From contig JAAZNF010000020.1 of assembly GCA_012798435.1 (NCBI GenBank), positions 1-40,375 of the forward strand: a stretch of DNA of 40,375 bases, given 5' to 3'. The notes below the pieces were generated by a model that did no database searches, was not told the origin of the DNA, and saw only the letters and a program-made list of their open reading frames with translations. Shown here in pieces: positions 6,702 to 40,375 of the stretch; the stretch's first letter is position 1; each line of letters starts with the position of its first letter. The translations under genes and the position numbers were made by a program. The DNA is from Myxococcales bacterium (GTDB lineage: Bacteria; Myxococcota; B64-G9).

Positions 6702-7451
6702 ATGGAACTTCCAGTGCTCAAGACCGAAGCTAGAACCGAAACCGGCAAGGGTCCAGCCCACCGGCTGCGCGCCCGCGGGCTCATCCCCGCGGTGTGCTAC
6801 GGCGCCAAGGAGAACCCACTGCCCATCGCGGTGTGCCCCAAGGAGCTGATGACCATCCTGCGGGGCCCCCGCGGGCTGAACTCGTTGATCCGGCTCCAGG
6901 GTGCCACCGACCGCACCGTGGTGGTGCAGGACTTCCAGCGTGACCCGGTGGAGCGCGAGCTGCTGCACGTGGACTTTCTGCAGATCGACACCCACAAGGC
7001 CATCCGGCGCGAGGTGCCGGTGGACTTCACGGGCAAGGCAGAGGGCGTCAAGGCCGGCGGCGTGCTGCAGGTGGCGCGGCGCTCGGTGCTGGTGGAGGCC
7101 CTGCCGACCGAGATCCCGGAAAAGATCGAGATCGACGTCAGCGCGCTGGCCATCGGCGACTCGGTGCACGTGGACGAGGTGAAGCTCCCCGCCGGCGTGA
7201 AGGCCCTGTTCGAGAAGGCCTACGCGCTGTGCTCGGTGGTGGCGCCCTCCGAGGAGAAGGCGCCGGTGGCCGAGGCCGCGCCGGCCGAGGGCGAGGCGGT
7301 GGCGGCCGAGGGCGAAGCCGCGGCGGCCGCTCCGGCGGATGGCAAGGCGGCCCCGGGCGCTGCCCCGGCGGCACCGGGCAAGGATGCGGCTCCGGCCGCA
7401 GACGGCAAGGGCGCCGCTCCCAAGAAGGAAGGTGGCGGCAAGAAGGGCTAG
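6702..7451 (+). CDS. rplY: 50S ribosomal protein L25 (TL5/Ctc form)
   Basis: L25 binds 5S rRNA in the central protuberance. The N-terminal domain starts ELPVLKTEARTETGKGPA and continues to about residue 95 (VVVQDFQRDPVERELLHVDFLQI). The TL5/Ctc C-terminal domain follows to about 180 (IPEKIEIDVSALAIGDSVHVDE). The last 65 or so residues are a low-complexity Ala/Pro/Gly tail ending in a Lys/Gly-rich stretch, longer than in most Ctc proteins. A GGAGG motif precedes the ATG. The next gene is pth, the common rplY-pth pairing. Confidence 0.96.
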   Translation: MELPVLKTEARTETGKGPAHRLRARGLIPAVCYGAKENPLPIAVCPKELMTILRGPRGLNSLIRLQGATDRTVVVQDFQRDPVERELLHVDFLQIDTHKAIRREVPVDFTGKAEGVKAGGVLQVARRSVLVEALPTEIPEKIEIDVSALAIGDSVHVDEVKLPAGVKALFEKAYALCSVVAPSEEKAPVAEAAPAEGEAVAAEGEAAAAAPADGKAAPGAAPAAPGKDAAPAADGKGAAPKKEGGGKKG

Positions 7452-34828: not shown

Positions 34829-36112
34829 GTGGAAGCGTTCGTGATCGAGGGAGGCCGCCGCCTGAGCGGGAGCATCCGTCCCAGCGGCAACAAGAACTCC
34901 GCCCTGCCGCTCCTGGCCGCGTCTCTGCTCACCGACCAGCCGCTCGTCTTGCGCAACGTGCCGCGCATCCGCGACGTGGCCGCCAAGCGCCAGATCCTGG
35001 CCGCGCAAGGGGTGGCCTTCGACGAGCCGGGGGCCAACGTGCTGCGCATGCAGTCCGGCTCCATGCCCGCCATGGACCCCGATCCCGAGCTGTGTCGGCG
35101 CATCCGCACCTCCATCCTGTTGGCCGGCCCGCTGCTGGCGCGCCTCGGCCATGTGCGCCTGCCGCGCCCCGGCGGCGACCGCATCGGCCCGCGCCCGCTG
35201 GACACCCACTTCCAGGTGCTGCGCGCGCTGGGGGCCAAGGTCGAGATCACCCCGCACTTCTACGAGGCTCGCACCGACGGGCTGCGCGGCGCCGACATCT
35301 TCCTCGAGGAGATGAGCGTGACCGGCACCGAGCAGGCGGTGCTGGCGGCGGTGCTGGCCGACGGCGACACGGTCATCCGCAACGCGGCCTCGGAGCCGCA
35401 CGTGCAGGACCTGTGCCGCTGCCTGTGCGGCATGGGCGCGCGCATCGCCGGCATCGGCACCAACACCCTGGAGATCCATGGCGTGCCCAGGCTCGCCGGC
35501 GCGGACTTCACCCTCGGCCCGGACTACATGGAGGTCGGGTCGTTTCTGGGGCTGGCGGCGGTGACCGGCTCCGAGCTGCGCATCCAGGGGGCGCGCCCGC
35601 AGGAGCACCGCATGACCCGCATCGCCTTCGGCAAGCTGGGCGTGACCTGGCAGGACGATGGGGACGACATCGTCATCCCGGCCGGGCAGGAGCTGCGCGT
35701 GCAGGCCGGGCCCCACGGGGCCATCCCCAAGATCGATGACGCGCCCTGGCCGGGTTTCCCCTCCGACCTCATGAGCATCGCGCTCACCGTGGCCACCCAG
35801 GCCGAGGGCACGGTGCTGATCCACGAGAAGATGTTCCAGAGCCGCCTGTTCTTCGTCGACAAGCTCATCGACATGGGGGCGCGCATCATCCTGTGCGATC
35901 CCCACCGGGCGGTGGTGTCCGGCCGCTCCCCGCTGTTCGGCGAATCCCTCACCAGCCCCGACATCCGGGCCGGCATGGCCATCCTCATCGCCGCCTTGTG
36001 CGCCCAGGGGCAGTCGGTCATCTCCAACATCGAGCAGATCGATCGCGGCTACCAGGACATCGAGAAGCGTCTCGCCGCCGTCGGCGCCGCCATCCGGCGC
36101 GTGAGCCTCTAG
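34829..36112 (+). CDS. murA: UDP-N-acetylglucosamine 1-carboxyvinyltransferase with Asp at the Cys site
   Basis: Transfers enolpyruvate from PEP to UDP-GlcNAc, the first committed step of peptidoglycan synthesis. 427 aa, GTG start with AAGGAG upstream. Conserved points: GNKNSALP (20-27) with the catalytic Lys/Asn, IRTSILLAGPLLARLG (92-107), PGFPSDL, and IDRGYQDIEKRLAAVGA at the end. The loop that normally reads GGC-x-IG-x-RP is GGDRIGPRP, so residue 117 (codon at 35177-35179, GAC) is Asp instead of Cys115 of E. coli. Such Asp enzymes are active but insensitive to fosfomycin. It ends the ridA-receptor-lipoprotein run; co-transcription is likely but its own promoter is not excluded. Confidence 0.95.
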   Translation: MEAFVIEGGRRLSGSIRPSGNKNSALPLLAASLLTDQPLVLRNVPRIRDVAAKRQILAAQGVAFDEPGANVLRMQSGSMPAMDPDPELCRRIRTSILLAGPLLARLGHVRLPRPGGDRIGPRPLDTHFQVLRALGAKVEITPHFYEARTDGLRGADIFLEEMSVTGTEQAVLAAVLADGDTVIRNAASEPHVQDLCRCLCGMGARIAGIGTNTLEIHGVPRLAGADFTLGPDYMEVGSFLGLAAVTGSELRIQGARPQEHRMTRIAFGKLGVTWQDDGDDIVIPAGQELRVQAGPHGAIPKIDDAPWPGFPSDLMSIALTVATQAEGTVLIHEKMFQSRLFFVDKLIDMGARIILCDPHRAVVSGRSPLFGESLTSPDIRAGMAILIAALCAQGQSVISNIEQIDRGYQDIEKRLAAVGAAIRRVSL

Positions 36113-36130
36113 CCCGCCCATCCCCGCGCC

Positions 36131-36164
36131 GTCCGGATTTCGACAGCATGTTCGAAATCCGGAC
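36131..36164. repeat. Perfect inverted repeat upstream of sctV, possible activator site
   Basis: Arms GTCCGGATTTCGA (36131-36143) and TCGAAATCCGGAC (36152-36164) are exact reverse complements of 13 bases around an 8-base loop. It lies 19 bases after the murA stop and 53 bases before the -24 element of a sigma-54 promoter. No T tract follows, so a standard terminator is unlikely. The location suits an enhancer-binding protein site. Confidence 0.6.
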
Positions 36165-36216
36165 AGGATCGGCGACACCGTTTGTAAATCTATCTGAAAA
36201 ACAACGACAATTTTTC

Positions 36217-36232
36217 TGGCATCGATCTTGCT
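36217..36232 (+). promoter_or_regulatory. Sigma-54 (-24/-12) promoter of the sctV-like gene
   Basis: TGGCAT (36217-36222) and TTGCT (36228-36232); GG and GC are separated by exactly ten bases, the RpoN spacing. A T-run lies right upstream, and the sequence before it is A/T-rich in a GC-rich genome. Transcription would start about 20-25 bases before ATG 36266. No comparable -35/-10 pair was seen in the gap. Confidence 0.7.
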
Positions 36233-36265
36233 AGGACACCGGCCAAAGATCACGGGAGCGTGCTC

Positions 36266-38125
36266 ATGGAACTTGTGAGGCGTGTGGGCAGGATGCTTCT
36301 CGGTGGAGGCCGGATGGAGCGCGTCTTCGCCCTGTTCGTCCTCTCGGCGGTGGCCATCCTGATCCTGCCCATCCCTCCCGCCTTGATGGACCTGCTCCTG
36401 TGCGCGAACTTGGCCGGCTCGCTCACGTTGCTCTTGGTCTCGCTGGAGATGGGGGACGCGCTGCGGGTGGCCTCCTTTCCCACGCTGCTCCTGGTCAGCA
36501 CCGTGTTCCGCCTCACCCTGAACATCTCCACCAGCCGGTTGGTGCTGCTCCACGGCGACGCGGGCGCGGTGGTGCGGGCCTTCGGAGAGTTCGTGGTGCA
36601 GGGCAACCCCCTGGTGGGTGGCATCGTGTTCCTCATCATCACCGTGGTGCAGTTCGTGGTCATCGCCAAGGGGGGCGAGCGGGTGGCCGAGGTCACCGCG
36701 CGCTTCACCCTCGACGCCATGCCGGGAAAGCAGATGAGCATCGACGCCGACCTGCGCGGCGGGCTCATCGATGGCGTCGAGGCGGCACGCCGGCGCGGGC
36801 AGCTGGAGCGCGAGGCGCAGTTCTACGGCGCCATGGACGGCGCCATGAAGTTCGTCAAGGGTGACGCCGTGGCCGGCCTGGTGATCGTGGTGGTGAACAT
36901 CCTGGGGGGGCTGCTGGTGGGCGTGGGGCAGCATGGCATGGAACTACCCGCCGCGGTGGCCCACTACACCGTGCTCACCATCGGGGACGGGCTGGCCTCC
37001 CAGGTGCCGGCGCTGCTGGTGTCGGTGGCGGCCGGGCTGGTGATCACCCGGGTCCGGCCGGAGAAGAGCGGCGCGGGGCTGGGGAGCGAGGTGCTGCGCC
37101 AGGTCGGCGCGCACCCCGAGGCCCTGCTGCTGGCGGGAGGAGCGCTGTCCGGACTGGGGGTCATCCCGGGCATGCCCAGCGTCTCGTTCCTGGTCTTGGG
37201 TGGGGCGACGGTAACCTTGGGCTTGTGGCTGCGCACCCGGGGCCGGCGCGACCTCGCAGACTGCGTGGAGTCGGCGCCGCGCGAAGGCGGGCCGTGCTTG
37301 TTTTTGGATCCCGCCATCTCGCCGCAGGAGATCGCGCCGCGGCTGGAGGAGCTGCGGCGGGGGTTGGAGGAAGACCTGGGGATTCCGGTGCCGGCCGTGC
37401 GGCTCGCCGCCGGCGCGCCCGGACGCTGGCGCCTGGAGGTGGACCAGGCCCCCGTCGCCGCCGGGGCGCTGTCCGAGCGGAACGTTCCCTGGGCCCGGCT
37501 GGAACAGGTGCTGCGGGAGTCGGCCTTCCGCTTCGTGGGGGTGCAGGAGGTGCAGGATCTGCTGGATCGGCTCGAACGCACCCAGCCTGCGCTGGTTCGC
37601 GAGATCGTTCCGCGGCTCATCCCGCCGGTGCTCCTGGCCGAGGTGCTCTCGCGCCTGGTCGAGGAGGGGGTGCCGATCCGCAACCTCAAGGGCATCTTGC
37701 TCTCGCTGGCCGAGCACGCACGCCGCGAGTCCGACCCGGTCCAGCTCAGCGAGCGAGTGCGCGAGGCCCTGCGGCCGATCATCAGCCACCGCCTGGCGCC
37801 GGACGGCAGCCTGCAACCGCTCCTGCTGGACCCGGCCATCGAGGAGGCGTTGGCCAAGGGCCTTTCCCGTGAGGGCGCGGGGTCCTCGCTCTCGCTGCCT
37901 CCCGAGCAAGGGGAGGCCATTCTGAGCGCCCTCGAACGGGTGCTGCGCGCCAGCACGGGCAAGCCGACGGTGGTCCTGACCCGGCCAGAGCTGCGCCGCC
38001 CCTTCTGGAAACTGGCCACCAACCTGTGCCGTACAATCTTCGTGGTGAGCTACGGGGAGTTGGAGCCGACCGTCTCACTCAAACCCGCCGGCGTGATCCG
38101 CCTGGCCCTGGAGACAAAGAGATGA
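36266..38125 (+). CDS. FHIPEP-family type III export gate protein (SctV/FlhA)
   Basis: 619 aa from ATG 36266 with GGGAG seven bases upstream (a GTG at 36260 has worse spacing). Export gate of flagellar and virulence type III systems. Eight or so membrane helices fill the first 310 residues. The FHIPEP loop GERVAEVTARFTLDAMPGKQMSIDADL (near 136-162) is diagnostic. The cytoplasmic part (about 320-619) is shorter than typical FlhA (about 690 aa total) or SctV and keeps RNLKGILLSLAEHA and the closing ISHRLAPDGSLQPLLLDP. No flagellar gene is seen in the window, so non-flagellar SctV is preferred but not proven. A sigma-54 promoter drives it; a TPR lipoprotein overlaps its end by four bases. Confidence 0.92.
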   Translation: MELVRRVGRMLLGGGRMERVFALFVLSAVAILILPIPPALMDLLLCANLAGSLTLLLVSLEMGDALRVASFPTLLLVSTVFRLTLNISTSRLVLLHGDAGAVVRAFGEFVVQGNPLVGGIVFLIITVVQFVVIAKGGERVAEVTARFTLDAMPGKQMSIDADLRGGLIDGVEAARRRGQLEREAQFYGAMDGAMKFVKGDAVAGLVIVVVNILGGLLVGVGQHGMELPAAVAHYTVLTIGDGLASQVPALLVSVAAGLVITRVRPEKSGAGLGSEVLRQVGAHPEALLLAGGALSGLGVIPGMPSVSFLVLGGATVTLGLWLRTRGRRDLADCVESAPREGGPCLFLDPAISPQEIAPRLEELRRGLEEDLGIPVPAVRLAAGAPGRWRLEVDQAPVAAGALSERNVPWARLEQVLRESAFRFVGVQEVQDLLDRLERTQPALVREIVPRLIPPVLLAEVLSRLVEEGVPIRNLKGILLSLAEHARRESDPVQLSERVREALRPIISHRLAPDGSLQPLLLDPAIEEALAKGLSREGAGSSLSLPPEQGEAILSALERVLRASTGKPTVVLTRPELRRPFWKLATNLCRTIFVVSYGELEPTVSLKPAGVIRLALETKR

Positions 38126-38664
38126 AAGTTCCTCTCGTGACGACGCTCGCGGCCGTTGGGATGTGCGGGTGCCTGGCTCGGACGGCGGTCCACCCCGAGG
38201 CGGTGCGGCTCAACGGCGAGGGTGCCCGGGCCCTGGCCGAGGGGCGCGCGCGCGAGGCGCGGGTGCTGTTCGACCTGAGCCTGGAGTATGGCCCGTGCTA
38301 CGCCGAGGCCCTGCACAACCTGGGGGTCTGGCACCTGCTGCGGGGGGAGTTGCAGGCCGCCGCCCAGCGCGAGGAGGAGGCGCTGGTCTGCCGGCCGGAC
38401 CTGGTCCAGGCCCGCTGCGGCCTGGGAGTGGTCCGCTGGCGGCAGGGGGATCTCGACGAGGCGCGCGCGCTGTTCGAGGAGACCCTGCGGCTCGATCCCG
38501 GCGCGCTCGATGCGCGTCGCAATCTGGTGCTGCTCGACATCGAACAGGGGCGGACGGAGGAGGCGCGCGCCCAACTCGAGCGGCTCCAAGCCCTCTCTCC
38601 GCAGGATCCGATTCTGGAACGTCTGCCGCCGCAGGACGAGGCGGGTCTACCGGCGGACCGGTGA
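38122..38664 (+). CDS. TPR lipoprotein next to sctV
   Basis: 180 aa from ATG 38122, overlapping the sctV stop by four bases. The short signal ends VGMCGC; Cys17 is the likelier lipid site, Cys15 is an alternative. Four TPR-like pairs follow (GARALAEGRAREARVLFDLSLEY, ALHNLGVWHLLRGELQAAAQREEEALVCRPD, ARCGLGVVRWRQGDLDEARALFEETLRLDP, ARRNLVLLDIEQGRTEEARAQLERL). Translational coupling to the export gate suggests an envelope role in the same machine; small TPR lipoproteins serve as pilotins in some secretion systems. That role is inference. Confidence 0.85.
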   Translation: MKVPLVTTLAAVGMCGCLARTAVHPEAVRLNGEGARALAEGRAREARVLFDLSLEYGPCYAEALHNLGVWHLLRGELQAAAQREEEALVCRPDLVQARCGLGVVRWRQGDLDEARALFEETLRLDPGALDARRNLVLLDIEQGRTEEARAQLERLQALSPQDPILERLPPQDEAGLPADR

Positions 38665-38677
38665 GAGGGGGCGGGAC

Positions 38678-39484
38678 ATGGCATTTCGTTTCTTCATCGT
38701 GGGACAGGAAGCCACTGCGGCGGGGTTCTTCGCAGACGAGGTCCGCGCCGGCCCGGAGATCGTCCTCGGCCGGAGCGAGGACGCGCACATCGTGCTCTTG
38801 GACCCCTCGGTATCCCGGCGGCACTGCCGGGTGACGGGACATGCGGACGGGTTGCGGGTGGAGGACCTGGGCAGCCGGTTGGGCACCCGCCTGAACGGAG
38901 CCGCCCTGTCGCCGGGAGAGGCTGTCCCGCTGCGGGCGGGAGACGAGCTCAGTCTGGGGGTGTACCGGGTGATCTACGTGGGAGATGCCGGCGCCGCCCC
39001 CGATGAGACTCGCGCGGTGGCGCTGGCGCTGCAGGAGTTCCTCGAACAGTCCGATGCCATCGTCGAGGAGGCCTTCCTGGAGATCGAGAACGGGCCCGAG
39101 GTCGGGCGGCGTATCGAGCTGCCGGAAGAGGGCGTGCTGCGGCTCGGCCGCGGCCGCGAGTGCGAAATCCGCCTCGACGACGCACGAACCTCGAGAACCC
39201 ACGCGGTGATTCGGCTGCGCCGCAAGGAGGCCTGGCTGGAGGACGCCGGCTCCCAAAACGGCACCTTCGTGGGCGAGCGGCGAGTGCGAGGGGCGGTCCG
39301 GCTGGCGGACCGAGATCGGTTGCGCCTGGGTCGGATGGTCCTGCGCTTGCGGCTGCCAAAGCAGCCGCTCGATCTCGGGGCCGTCCTCGCGGCCCGGACG
39401 GGGCCGGCGCGGCGTCTGTGGCTTTCATCGCTCGCATTTCTGCTACTTGGGGTGGGCGGTCTTCTGCTGGCGGCGTGGACGTGA
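38678..39484 (+). CDS. Tail-anchored protein with two FHA domains
   Basis: 268 aa from ATG 38678 with GGGGGCGGG as a weak ribosome site. FHA1 (about 25-100) has LGRSEDAHIVL, SRRHCRV and a loop RLGTRLNG in place of the usual NGT. FHA2 (about 135-227) has the full set RLGRG, SRTHAVI and SQNGTFV. A single membrane helix closes the protein (about 248-267, LWLSSLAFLLLGVGGLLLAAW), so both FHA domains are cytoplasmic. FHA domains bind phospho-threonine. The N-terminal cytoplasmic FHA part of type III SctD is similar in general layout, but the periplasmic ring domains are absent here. It follows the TPR lipoprotein by 13 bases. Confidence 0.88.
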   Translation: MAFRFFIVGQEATAAGFFADEVRAGPEIVLGRSEDAHIVLLDPSVSRRHCRVTGHADGLRVEDLGSRLGTRLNGAALSPGEAVPLRAGDELSLGVYRVIYVGDAGAAPDETRAVALALQEFLEQSDAIVEEAFLEIENGPEVGRRIELPEEGVLRLGRGRECEIRLDDARTSRTHAVIRLRRKEAWLEDAGSQNGTFVGERRVRGAVRLADRDRLRLGRMVLRLRLPKQPLDLGAVLAARTGPARRLWLSSLAFLLLGVGGLLLAAWT

Positions 39485-39506: not shown

Positions 39507-40375
39507 CTAGCTGAGGTCCACGCGGAGGACCTGGTTGCCGATCTGGACGCGATCGTCGTGGGAGAGCGGCGTGCTGCCGTTGATGCGAAGGTAGGTGCCG
39601 TTCGACGAGCCCAGGTCGCGCAAGAAGCAGTCTCCTTGCCGGTTGCTGAGAAGACAGTGGCGCGAGGAGATGTACCCGTCATCGGGGAAGCGCACCTCGC
39701 CTTCCTCCCGTCCGATCATGACCTCGGCCTGGGTGAGCAGGTGAATTTCCCCGATCTTTCCGCCTTCCAGGATCTGTACCAGGCGGGCCCACACCTGGGG
39801 CACTGGGCTCCCCCAGAACTGGCTGTCGTCGCCGGCCTTCGGTGGAGCCTCCAGGTCCTGGAAGCCCCCCGGCACCTCCAGCCTCAGCAGTTGCCGCCCG
39901 ATGCGAAAGCAGGTCCCCGGCACGATGGGCTCCTCGGCGGTCATCTTGCGGAAGATGCCGTTGAGGCTGTCGAGGTCGGTGATAGAGAGCTGGCCGTCCT
40001 TGAAAATGAGTTCGGCATGCCGCGGGGAGATGAACGGGTCCTTGGGGAACATGACGACCCCTTGGCTCCGCCCGAGCATGGTGCGCTCGGCGGCCAGGGT
40101 GAAGACCGTGCCCTCGGAGCCGTCGGGCTTGATCAGCACCAGGCGGGCGCGGGGTTTGCGAGCGGCGTCGGGGGAGGCCATGTGCATGAACATGGTGGCC
40201 CCCTTTGGTGCCGCCTCGCCTCCGGAGAGCCGTTGGCCGCAGCCGCTACAGAAGACGTCGCCGGGCTTGGCGGGGGCGTGGCAGCGCGGGCAGGCCGCGG
40301 GGGCGCCGGGCAGTGGCTCAGCGGCCGGGGCGGCGGCGACCGGCGCCGGCTCCGCAGGGGGAGGTGGCGGCGCCG
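39507..40375 (-). CDS. Zinc-ribbon and double-FHA protein, N-terminus beyond window
   Basis: Minus strand; the frame is open from the right edge to the TAG at 39507, with at least 289 codons. An ATG at 40193 is internal, since upstream codons continue as coding: a Pro/Ala-rich stretch, then CPRC...CSGC (about 40280-40225 on the map), a CxxC-CxxC zinc ribbon, then QRLSGGEAAPKGAT before the ATG. Two FHA domains follow: LGRSQGVVMFPKDPFISPRHAEL with LDSLNGIF, and IGREEGEVRFPDDGYISSRHCLL with LGSSNGTYL, both with the phospho-Thr binding residues GR, S-x-RH and NG. It converges on the other FHA gene with a 22-base gap. Likely a soluble phospho-Thr reader. Confidence 0.88.
   Translation of the reverse strand, partial: APPPPPAEPAPVAAAPAAEPLPGAPAACPRCHAPAKPGDVFCSGCGQRLSGGEAAPKGATMFMHMASPDAARKPRARLVLIKPDGSEGTVFTLAAERTMLGRSQGVVMFPKDPFISPRHAELIFKDGQLSITDLDSLNGIFRKMTAEEPIVPGTCFRIGRQLLRLEVPGGFQDLEAPPKAGDDSQFWGSPVPQVWARLVQILEGGKIGEIHLLTQAEVMIGREEGEVRFPDDGYISSRHCLLSNRQGDCFLRDLGSSNGTYLRINGSTPLSHDDRVQIGNQVLRVDLS

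Follow-up and report, generated by a model that had tools for sequence, protein, structure and literature searches.

A predicted RpoN-dependent promoter with a two-dyad activator site before a type III export gate gene in a Myxococcales bacterium, and its recurrence at secretion, recombination and transposase genes

Positions 36131-36232 of the window, meaning the whole 40,375-nucleotide stretch of DNA analyzed here, very probably constitute the regulatory region of an RpoN-dependent promoter with a two-dyad activator site, which the sequence comparisons place within a wider regulon. The predicted sigma-54 (RpoN) promoter would drive an operon encoding SctV, a TPR lipoprotein, and an FHA-domain protein. 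An upstream palindrome would serve as the activating sequence. It comprises a pair of 15-bp dyads separated by two turns of the helix, to which a single NtrC-type activator probably binds as two dimers or as an oligomer. A short DNA loop would then bring the bound activator into contact with sigma-54 RNA polymerase, and ATP hydrolysis would drive promoter opening. The sequences show the elements themselves, that they recur, that related genera conserve them, and that their spacing is helically phased; binding and activation, like the identity of the activator and its inducing signal, are what we infer.

Within this genome, the type III operons would respond to the same activator, as would radC and an L,D-transpeptidase gene. 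The predicted targets of this activator extend to recA and comM in relatives and to two multicopy Y1 transposase (RAYT-like) families that carry the site at their 5' ends. Because the site recurs before type III, recombination, and transposase genes, one activator probably switches the whole set together. A single palindrome thereby leads to a testable regulon across the family, for which the putative binding site is defined, the geometry is strict, and the targets include uncharacterized secreted-type proteins.

Promoter architecture and operon context of sctV

The features of the region are as follows.

34829..36112, forward strand: EPSP-synthase family gene, murA-like (Pfam PF00275), ending 18 nt before the activator site
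36131..36164, no strand: entire putative upstream activator site, an exact 13+13 inverted repeat (arms 36131-36143 and 36152-36164, 8-nt spacer)
36131..36145, no strand: distal dyad GTCCGGATTTCGACA of the putative activator site, centre at about -105, fitting the GTCCG-N5-CGGAC consensus
36150..36164, no strand: proximal dyad GTTCGAAATCCGGAC of the putative activator site, centre at about -86
36216..36232, forward strand: predicted sigma-54 promoter CTGGCATCGATCTTGCT (-24/-12), near-consensus, with a putative transcription start at about 36243
36266..38125, forward strand: sctV, type III export gate (FHIPEP; Pfam PF00771, E=5e-180)
38122..38664, forward strand: TPR lipoprotein of the same operon, overlapping the sctV stop codon (from its translation; TPR Pfam matches in the G006 homologue)
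38678..39484, forward strand: double FHA-domain protein with a C-terminal membrane segment (Yop-YscD_cpl/FHA, from Pfam)
39507..40373, reverse strand: zinc-ribbon/FHA gene, convergent and outside the sctV transcript, open at the contig end

Sigma-54 boxes lie near the pattern TGGCAC-N5-TTGCW, with GG at -24 and GC at -12 separated by ten bases. The sequence TGGCATCGATCTTGCT at 36217-36232 shows this arrangement, since TGGCAT (36217-36222) and TTGCT (36228-36232) place GG (36218-19) ten bases from GC (36230-31). Upstream activating sequences of NtrC-type activators are typically dyad-symmetric, often tandem, and located roughly 80-150 bp before the start. The sctV dyads, centred at about -86 and -105, agree in symmetry, tandem arrangement, and distance. 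The initial annotation had described both a box with GG-N10-GC spacing and an exact 13+13 inverted repeat upstream that lacked a T tract. Both descriptions were borne out, and the gap between palindrome and TGGCA is 52 nt. In 100 dinucleotide shuffles, the expected count per window was 0.04 for perfect 13-bp arms with a loop of at most 20 and likewise 0.04 for a TGGCAYN5TTGCW box, and one of each was observed. No T tract, terminator-like match, or sigma-70-like match was found around the palindrome, and the sctV upstream region gave no Rfam match.

The most suitable reading of the palindrome is a pair of neighbouring 15-bp dyads of the form GTCCG-N5-CGGAC, with 19 bp between their centres. The distal dyad of the sctV copy is imperfect, retaining 7 of the 10 outer bases. 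Relatives carry two distinct dyads of 15-17 bp rather than one long hairpin, as in G008, which reads GTCCGGAATCCGGAC-CGCCT-GTCCGGGATTCGAGC. Since relatives have a separate dyad in each half, the 13-bp arms of the sctV copy are a by-product of two similar dyads.

Translation of SctV likely begins at ATG 36266, which follows GGGAG, rather than at GTG 36260, judging from ribosome-site spacing. A separate flagellar-type gene set, recognized from translations, is present on another contig of the genome (C128), and sctV is therefore not the flagellar gene. Among named sequences, the best SctV matches come from MAGs that carry the labels Archangium and Deltaproteobacteria, at about 40%. The zinc-ribbon/FHA gene is kept beside sctV across the family. 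A Ser/Thr kinase gene (L211:7239-9110 and L214:418-2229) and FHA/zinc-ribbon proteins adjoin sctU-sctV in two relatives, and the G007 copy of this kinase contains a zinc ribbon and TPRs. Such kinase and FHA neighbours hint at phosphorylation control.

Conservation in related genera and spacing geometry

This SctV is encoded in seven of the nine family genomes, at 52-58% identity. The sites and box precede sctV in the genome under study (G000) and in G002, G006, G007, and G008. They precede sctU in G001, G006, G007, and G008. Five further genera of the family thus have the two-part site and box at sctV and/or sctU, and in G005 there is only a degenerate version. The same elements stand before a needle-like/SctI-like/YscJ/FliH/ATPase operon in G000, G006, and G007, which between them contribute needle-like, inner-rod-like, YscJ, FliH-like, and T3SS ATPase genes. 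The G006 needle-like gene has a weak Pfam needle match (E=0.0076), and its inner-rod match is also weak (E=0.0018). A second promoter of this kind in G006 heads an operon with FliMN_C and FliP. Outside the family, tandem GTCCG dyads were found upstream of sctV in none of the 20 named loci scanned.

Two further observations concern type III genes. Proteins of about 200-235 aa with needle-like C-termini are encoded behind the same promoter at L262, L264, and L301, and are candidate extra needle, rod, or tip proteins. An unrelated deltaproteobacterial MAG (L043, around 6820-6910) has a sigma-54 box, TGGCACAAAAGTTGCA, before sctV, and its upstream inverted repeat differs (CGTCACC...GGTGACG).

Spacing was compared across 57 promoters. 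Dyad centres are mostly 19-21 bp apart, and the distance from proximal dyad to box clusters near 51, 61, 71, 82, and 104 bp, with a fitted period of 10.55-10.75 bp (about 10.6). Against a smoothed null, none of 20,000 draws reached the observed periodicity (54 sites kept). With the main cluster left out, the periodicity gave p=1e-4; the phasing p is optimistic because orthologous sites are not independent. Such phasing is as expected if activator and polymerase must make contact over a short DNA loop. As with NtrC-type upstream sites, the element is common to several sigma-54 promoters and its spacing is compatible with looping. Recurrence at sctV and sctU of other genera, together with helically phased spacing, hence supports the initial proposal of an RpoN promoter with an enhancer-type site.

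Genomic copies, transposase elements and the predicted regulon

The host genome (5.05 Mb, 129 contigs) was searched with the sctV upstream region, which revealed some twenty further copies of the palindrome. The site occurs about 27 times, with 20 copies inside transposase elements. The suggestion that it might be a unique, dedicated element is rejected by these many copies. They fall into two groups, one single-copy and the other contained in two multicopy elements that break the assembly. All single-copy sites examined have a downstream sigma-54 box or a near-match. The palindrome lies exactly 52 nt before the box at the L,D-transpeptidase gene (C63) and at a Cys-rich lipoprotein gene (C101). 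The gap is larger at radC (C114, 62 nt) and at the needle-like operon (C112, 96 nt), and at C69:20487 there is a near-match to the box only (TGGCACGAAAATTGAA). Some other copies sit between divergent genes or in transposase promoters. Exact TGGCAYN5TTGCW boxes number 49 in this genome; the pattern in reverse, by comparison, occurs 2 times.

Two multicopy Y1 (RAYT-like) transposase families have the activator site and sigma-54 box 5' of their genes. Their elements were located on C5, C41, C53, C57, C63, C75, C94, C116 (L134, L139, L164, L168, L169, L171), and C125 (L135). In RAYT1 (at least eight copies), the palindrome is followed by 52 nt, TGGCATCGTTCTTGCT, and a Y1/IS200-like transposase gene. 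Six aligned copies of this element have a common block with a GGGGACAGGCCC repeat at the upstream edge, and their outer sequence differs. RAYT2 has a left part common to 12 contig ends, in which the palindrome is followed by 97 nt, TGGTATGACAATTGCT, and a further Y1 gene whose complete sequence was read at C125 only. Among the papers searched, none came up for RAYT together with sigma-54.

To delimit the regulon, genomes were searched with two profiles, R1 (9 sequences) and R2 (15 sequences). R2 matched 166 times in the 9 family genomes and 22 times in 49 genomes outside the family, counts that differ from promoter numbers because both strands were counted and multicopy elements were included. 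Some profile matches were training sequences, family sites are not independent, and several matches have one clear dyad only. The sites at sctU of G001 and G008, recA of G007 and G008, comM of G003 and G008, and radC of G003 and G006 were outside the R2 training set. The genomes are drafts, and the target sets per genome derive from the matches listed.

Downstream genes recur by orthology across genomes. The L,D-transpeptidase gene follows the site in at least three genomes (G000, G007, G008). Site and box precede radC in at least three (G000, G003, G006; L218, L310, L324), comM-type genes in at least three (G003, G004, G008; L267, L303, L311), and recA in at least two (G007, G008; L316, L256). 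The initial annotation had assigned the sctV unit a dedicated activator, and this part of the proposal is not supported. Development, contact, or predation had been raised there as possible occasions for the switch. The same promoter type precedes other type III operons, the L,D-transpeptidase gene, recA, radC, comM, and transposase genes, so the activator is not dedicated to the sctV unit.

Additional families occur behind the site. An uncharacterized family of about 150 aa (MSxRxKxxK...) was seen in at least five genera (L250, L300, L302, L319, L323), with no Pfam match where tested. A Cys-rich lipoprotein family was seen in at least three genera (L217, L254, L333), including G003, where SctV was not detected. 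Site matches without a detected SctV also characterize G004 and G017. Half of the R2 matches outside the family, 11 of the 22, come from G017 (family f10), where one match precedes a beta-CASP metallo-hydrolase gene (L313). Given these 11 matches in G017, a genome from a different family in which SctV was not detected, the activator may be older than its association with type III secretion. A single-contig 9.0-Mb genome from another family of the phylum (G049) has one R2 match, near the cut-off.

Sigma-54 polymerase requires an AAA+ activator bound upstream. The host genome encodes one RpoN and 35 Sigma54_activat proteins. A search beside these promoters found no activator gene. The type III loci retrieved contain none either, apart from one in G002 that lies about 5 kb away from the sctV operon. 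The host-genome activator regions inspected, 18 of the 35, showed no autoregulatory tandem dyads. At least one FHA-type activator gene is encoded (L371), and no tie between it and the activator site was found. The dyad TGTCCG-N5-CGGACA fits TGT-N11-ACA, one common half-site arrangement of activators in D. vulgaris (PMC4641369).

Alternative readings and relation to known systems

Several other explanations of the palindrome and its recurrence deserve consideration. Its position 18 nt past the murA-like stop codon and its possible 13-bp stem would fit a terminator or mRNA hairpin ending that gene. This reading is scarcely credible, as no T run follows the stem-loop and neither a terminator nor an Rfam match was obtained, on which grounds an intrinsic terminator or RNA element was rejected. 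Other copies, moreover, lie between divergent genes or in transposase promoters, and relatives have paired dyads in place of a long hairpin. Palindromes are commonly associated with RAYTs, and in this genome most copies do belong to a pair of multicopy Y1 transposase elements found at contig ends. The palindrome might then be a REP-like or transposase-recognized hairpin, spread by RAYT transposases and adjacent to a sigma-54 box by chance. However, each single-copy example examined has a box or near-match downstream, and the transposase copies likewise have the box between site and start codon. RAYT1 is flanked by a different repeat (GGGGACAGGCCC), the sctV and sctU sites of relatives have no adjoining transposase, and site-to-box distances are helically phased. 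This origin is accordingly judged very unlikely. No set of solitary, promoter-independent palindromes was found, and the non-transposase copies examined precede boxes or near-matches, which makes REP spread without a promoter role unlikely as well.

Other readings accept the shared promoter and differ in its purpose. A natural-competence regulon that joins killing to DNA uptake, like TfoX/QstR over type VI in Vibrio cholerae (PMC6237807), would account for site and box at recA, radC, and comM. Yet neither dprA nor comEC had site and box upstream in any of the nine family genomes, so a full competence regulon is not supported, and this reading is improbable. An activator responding to DNA damage or genome stress, with type III secretion and transposases under secondary control, appears similarly improbable. 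The site shared by recA, radC, and transposase genes would suit it, as would G003, G004, and G017 with their site matches and undetected SctV. On the other hand, the clearest recurrent targets in the family are type III secretion operons, and no other SOS-type genes lay downstream of the matches examined.

Beyond the predicted RpoN promoter and its regulon, a broader scenario can be put forward tentatively. One sigma-54 activator may co-activate a needle-bearing T3SS, the cell-wall L,D-transpeptidase, and recA/radC/comM, and two transposase families may have acquired the same enhancer-promoter, which would confine their expression and spread to times when the injection programme is active. If this is true, a class of regulators not known for such a role would couple contact with other cells to the transfer of genes or to change in the genome. 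The site could serve as bait for the activator and as a guide to likely substrates of this so far unstudied type III secretion system. It also allows one to ask whether injection, recombination, and transposition come on together.

Sigma-54 control of type III secretion has already been reported. The new features here are a predicted site of tandem dyads whose spacing is phased, recombination genes among the targets, and transposase genes fronted by the same enhancer-promoter. In Desulfovibrio vulgaris, DVUA0100 exemplifies direct control of type III secretion operons by sigma-54 and an activator (PMC4641369). The likeness lies in sigma-54 promoters and an upstream activator motif before type III operons and an unlinked predicted secreted protein. 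However, the DVUA0100 gene lies inside a type III operon, and its reported regulon comprises three operons (PMC4641369). No activator gene was found within a type III operon in the type III loci fetched here, and the present system has a tandem dyad pair, with recombination genes and transposases in its predicted regulon.

Sigma-54 and activators also govern type III secretion in the HrpR/HrpS-sigma54-hrpL system of Pseudomonas syringae (PMC5263251). In that system sigma-54 exerts its effect via a second sigma factor, HrpL, whereas here the site and box stand directly before structural genes. CtcC/sigma-54 of Chlamydia trachomatis similarly ties a single activator to type III effectors and envelope genes; the lineage is unrelated, and the parts of the account consulted do not report recombination genes or mobile elements in the CtcC regulon (PMC7482065). 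The needleless T3SS* of Myxococcus xanthus (PMC12075869) is a type III-like export apparatus in a possibly related predatory lineage. It lacks the needle, unlike the family described here, in which needle-like and inner-rod-like genes head an operon. Finally, TfoX/QstR of Vibrio cholerae (PMC6237807) offers a case in which one regulator joins a secretion machine to recombination genes, although machine, regulator class, and sigma factor differ, and comEC and dprA are absent from the set found here.
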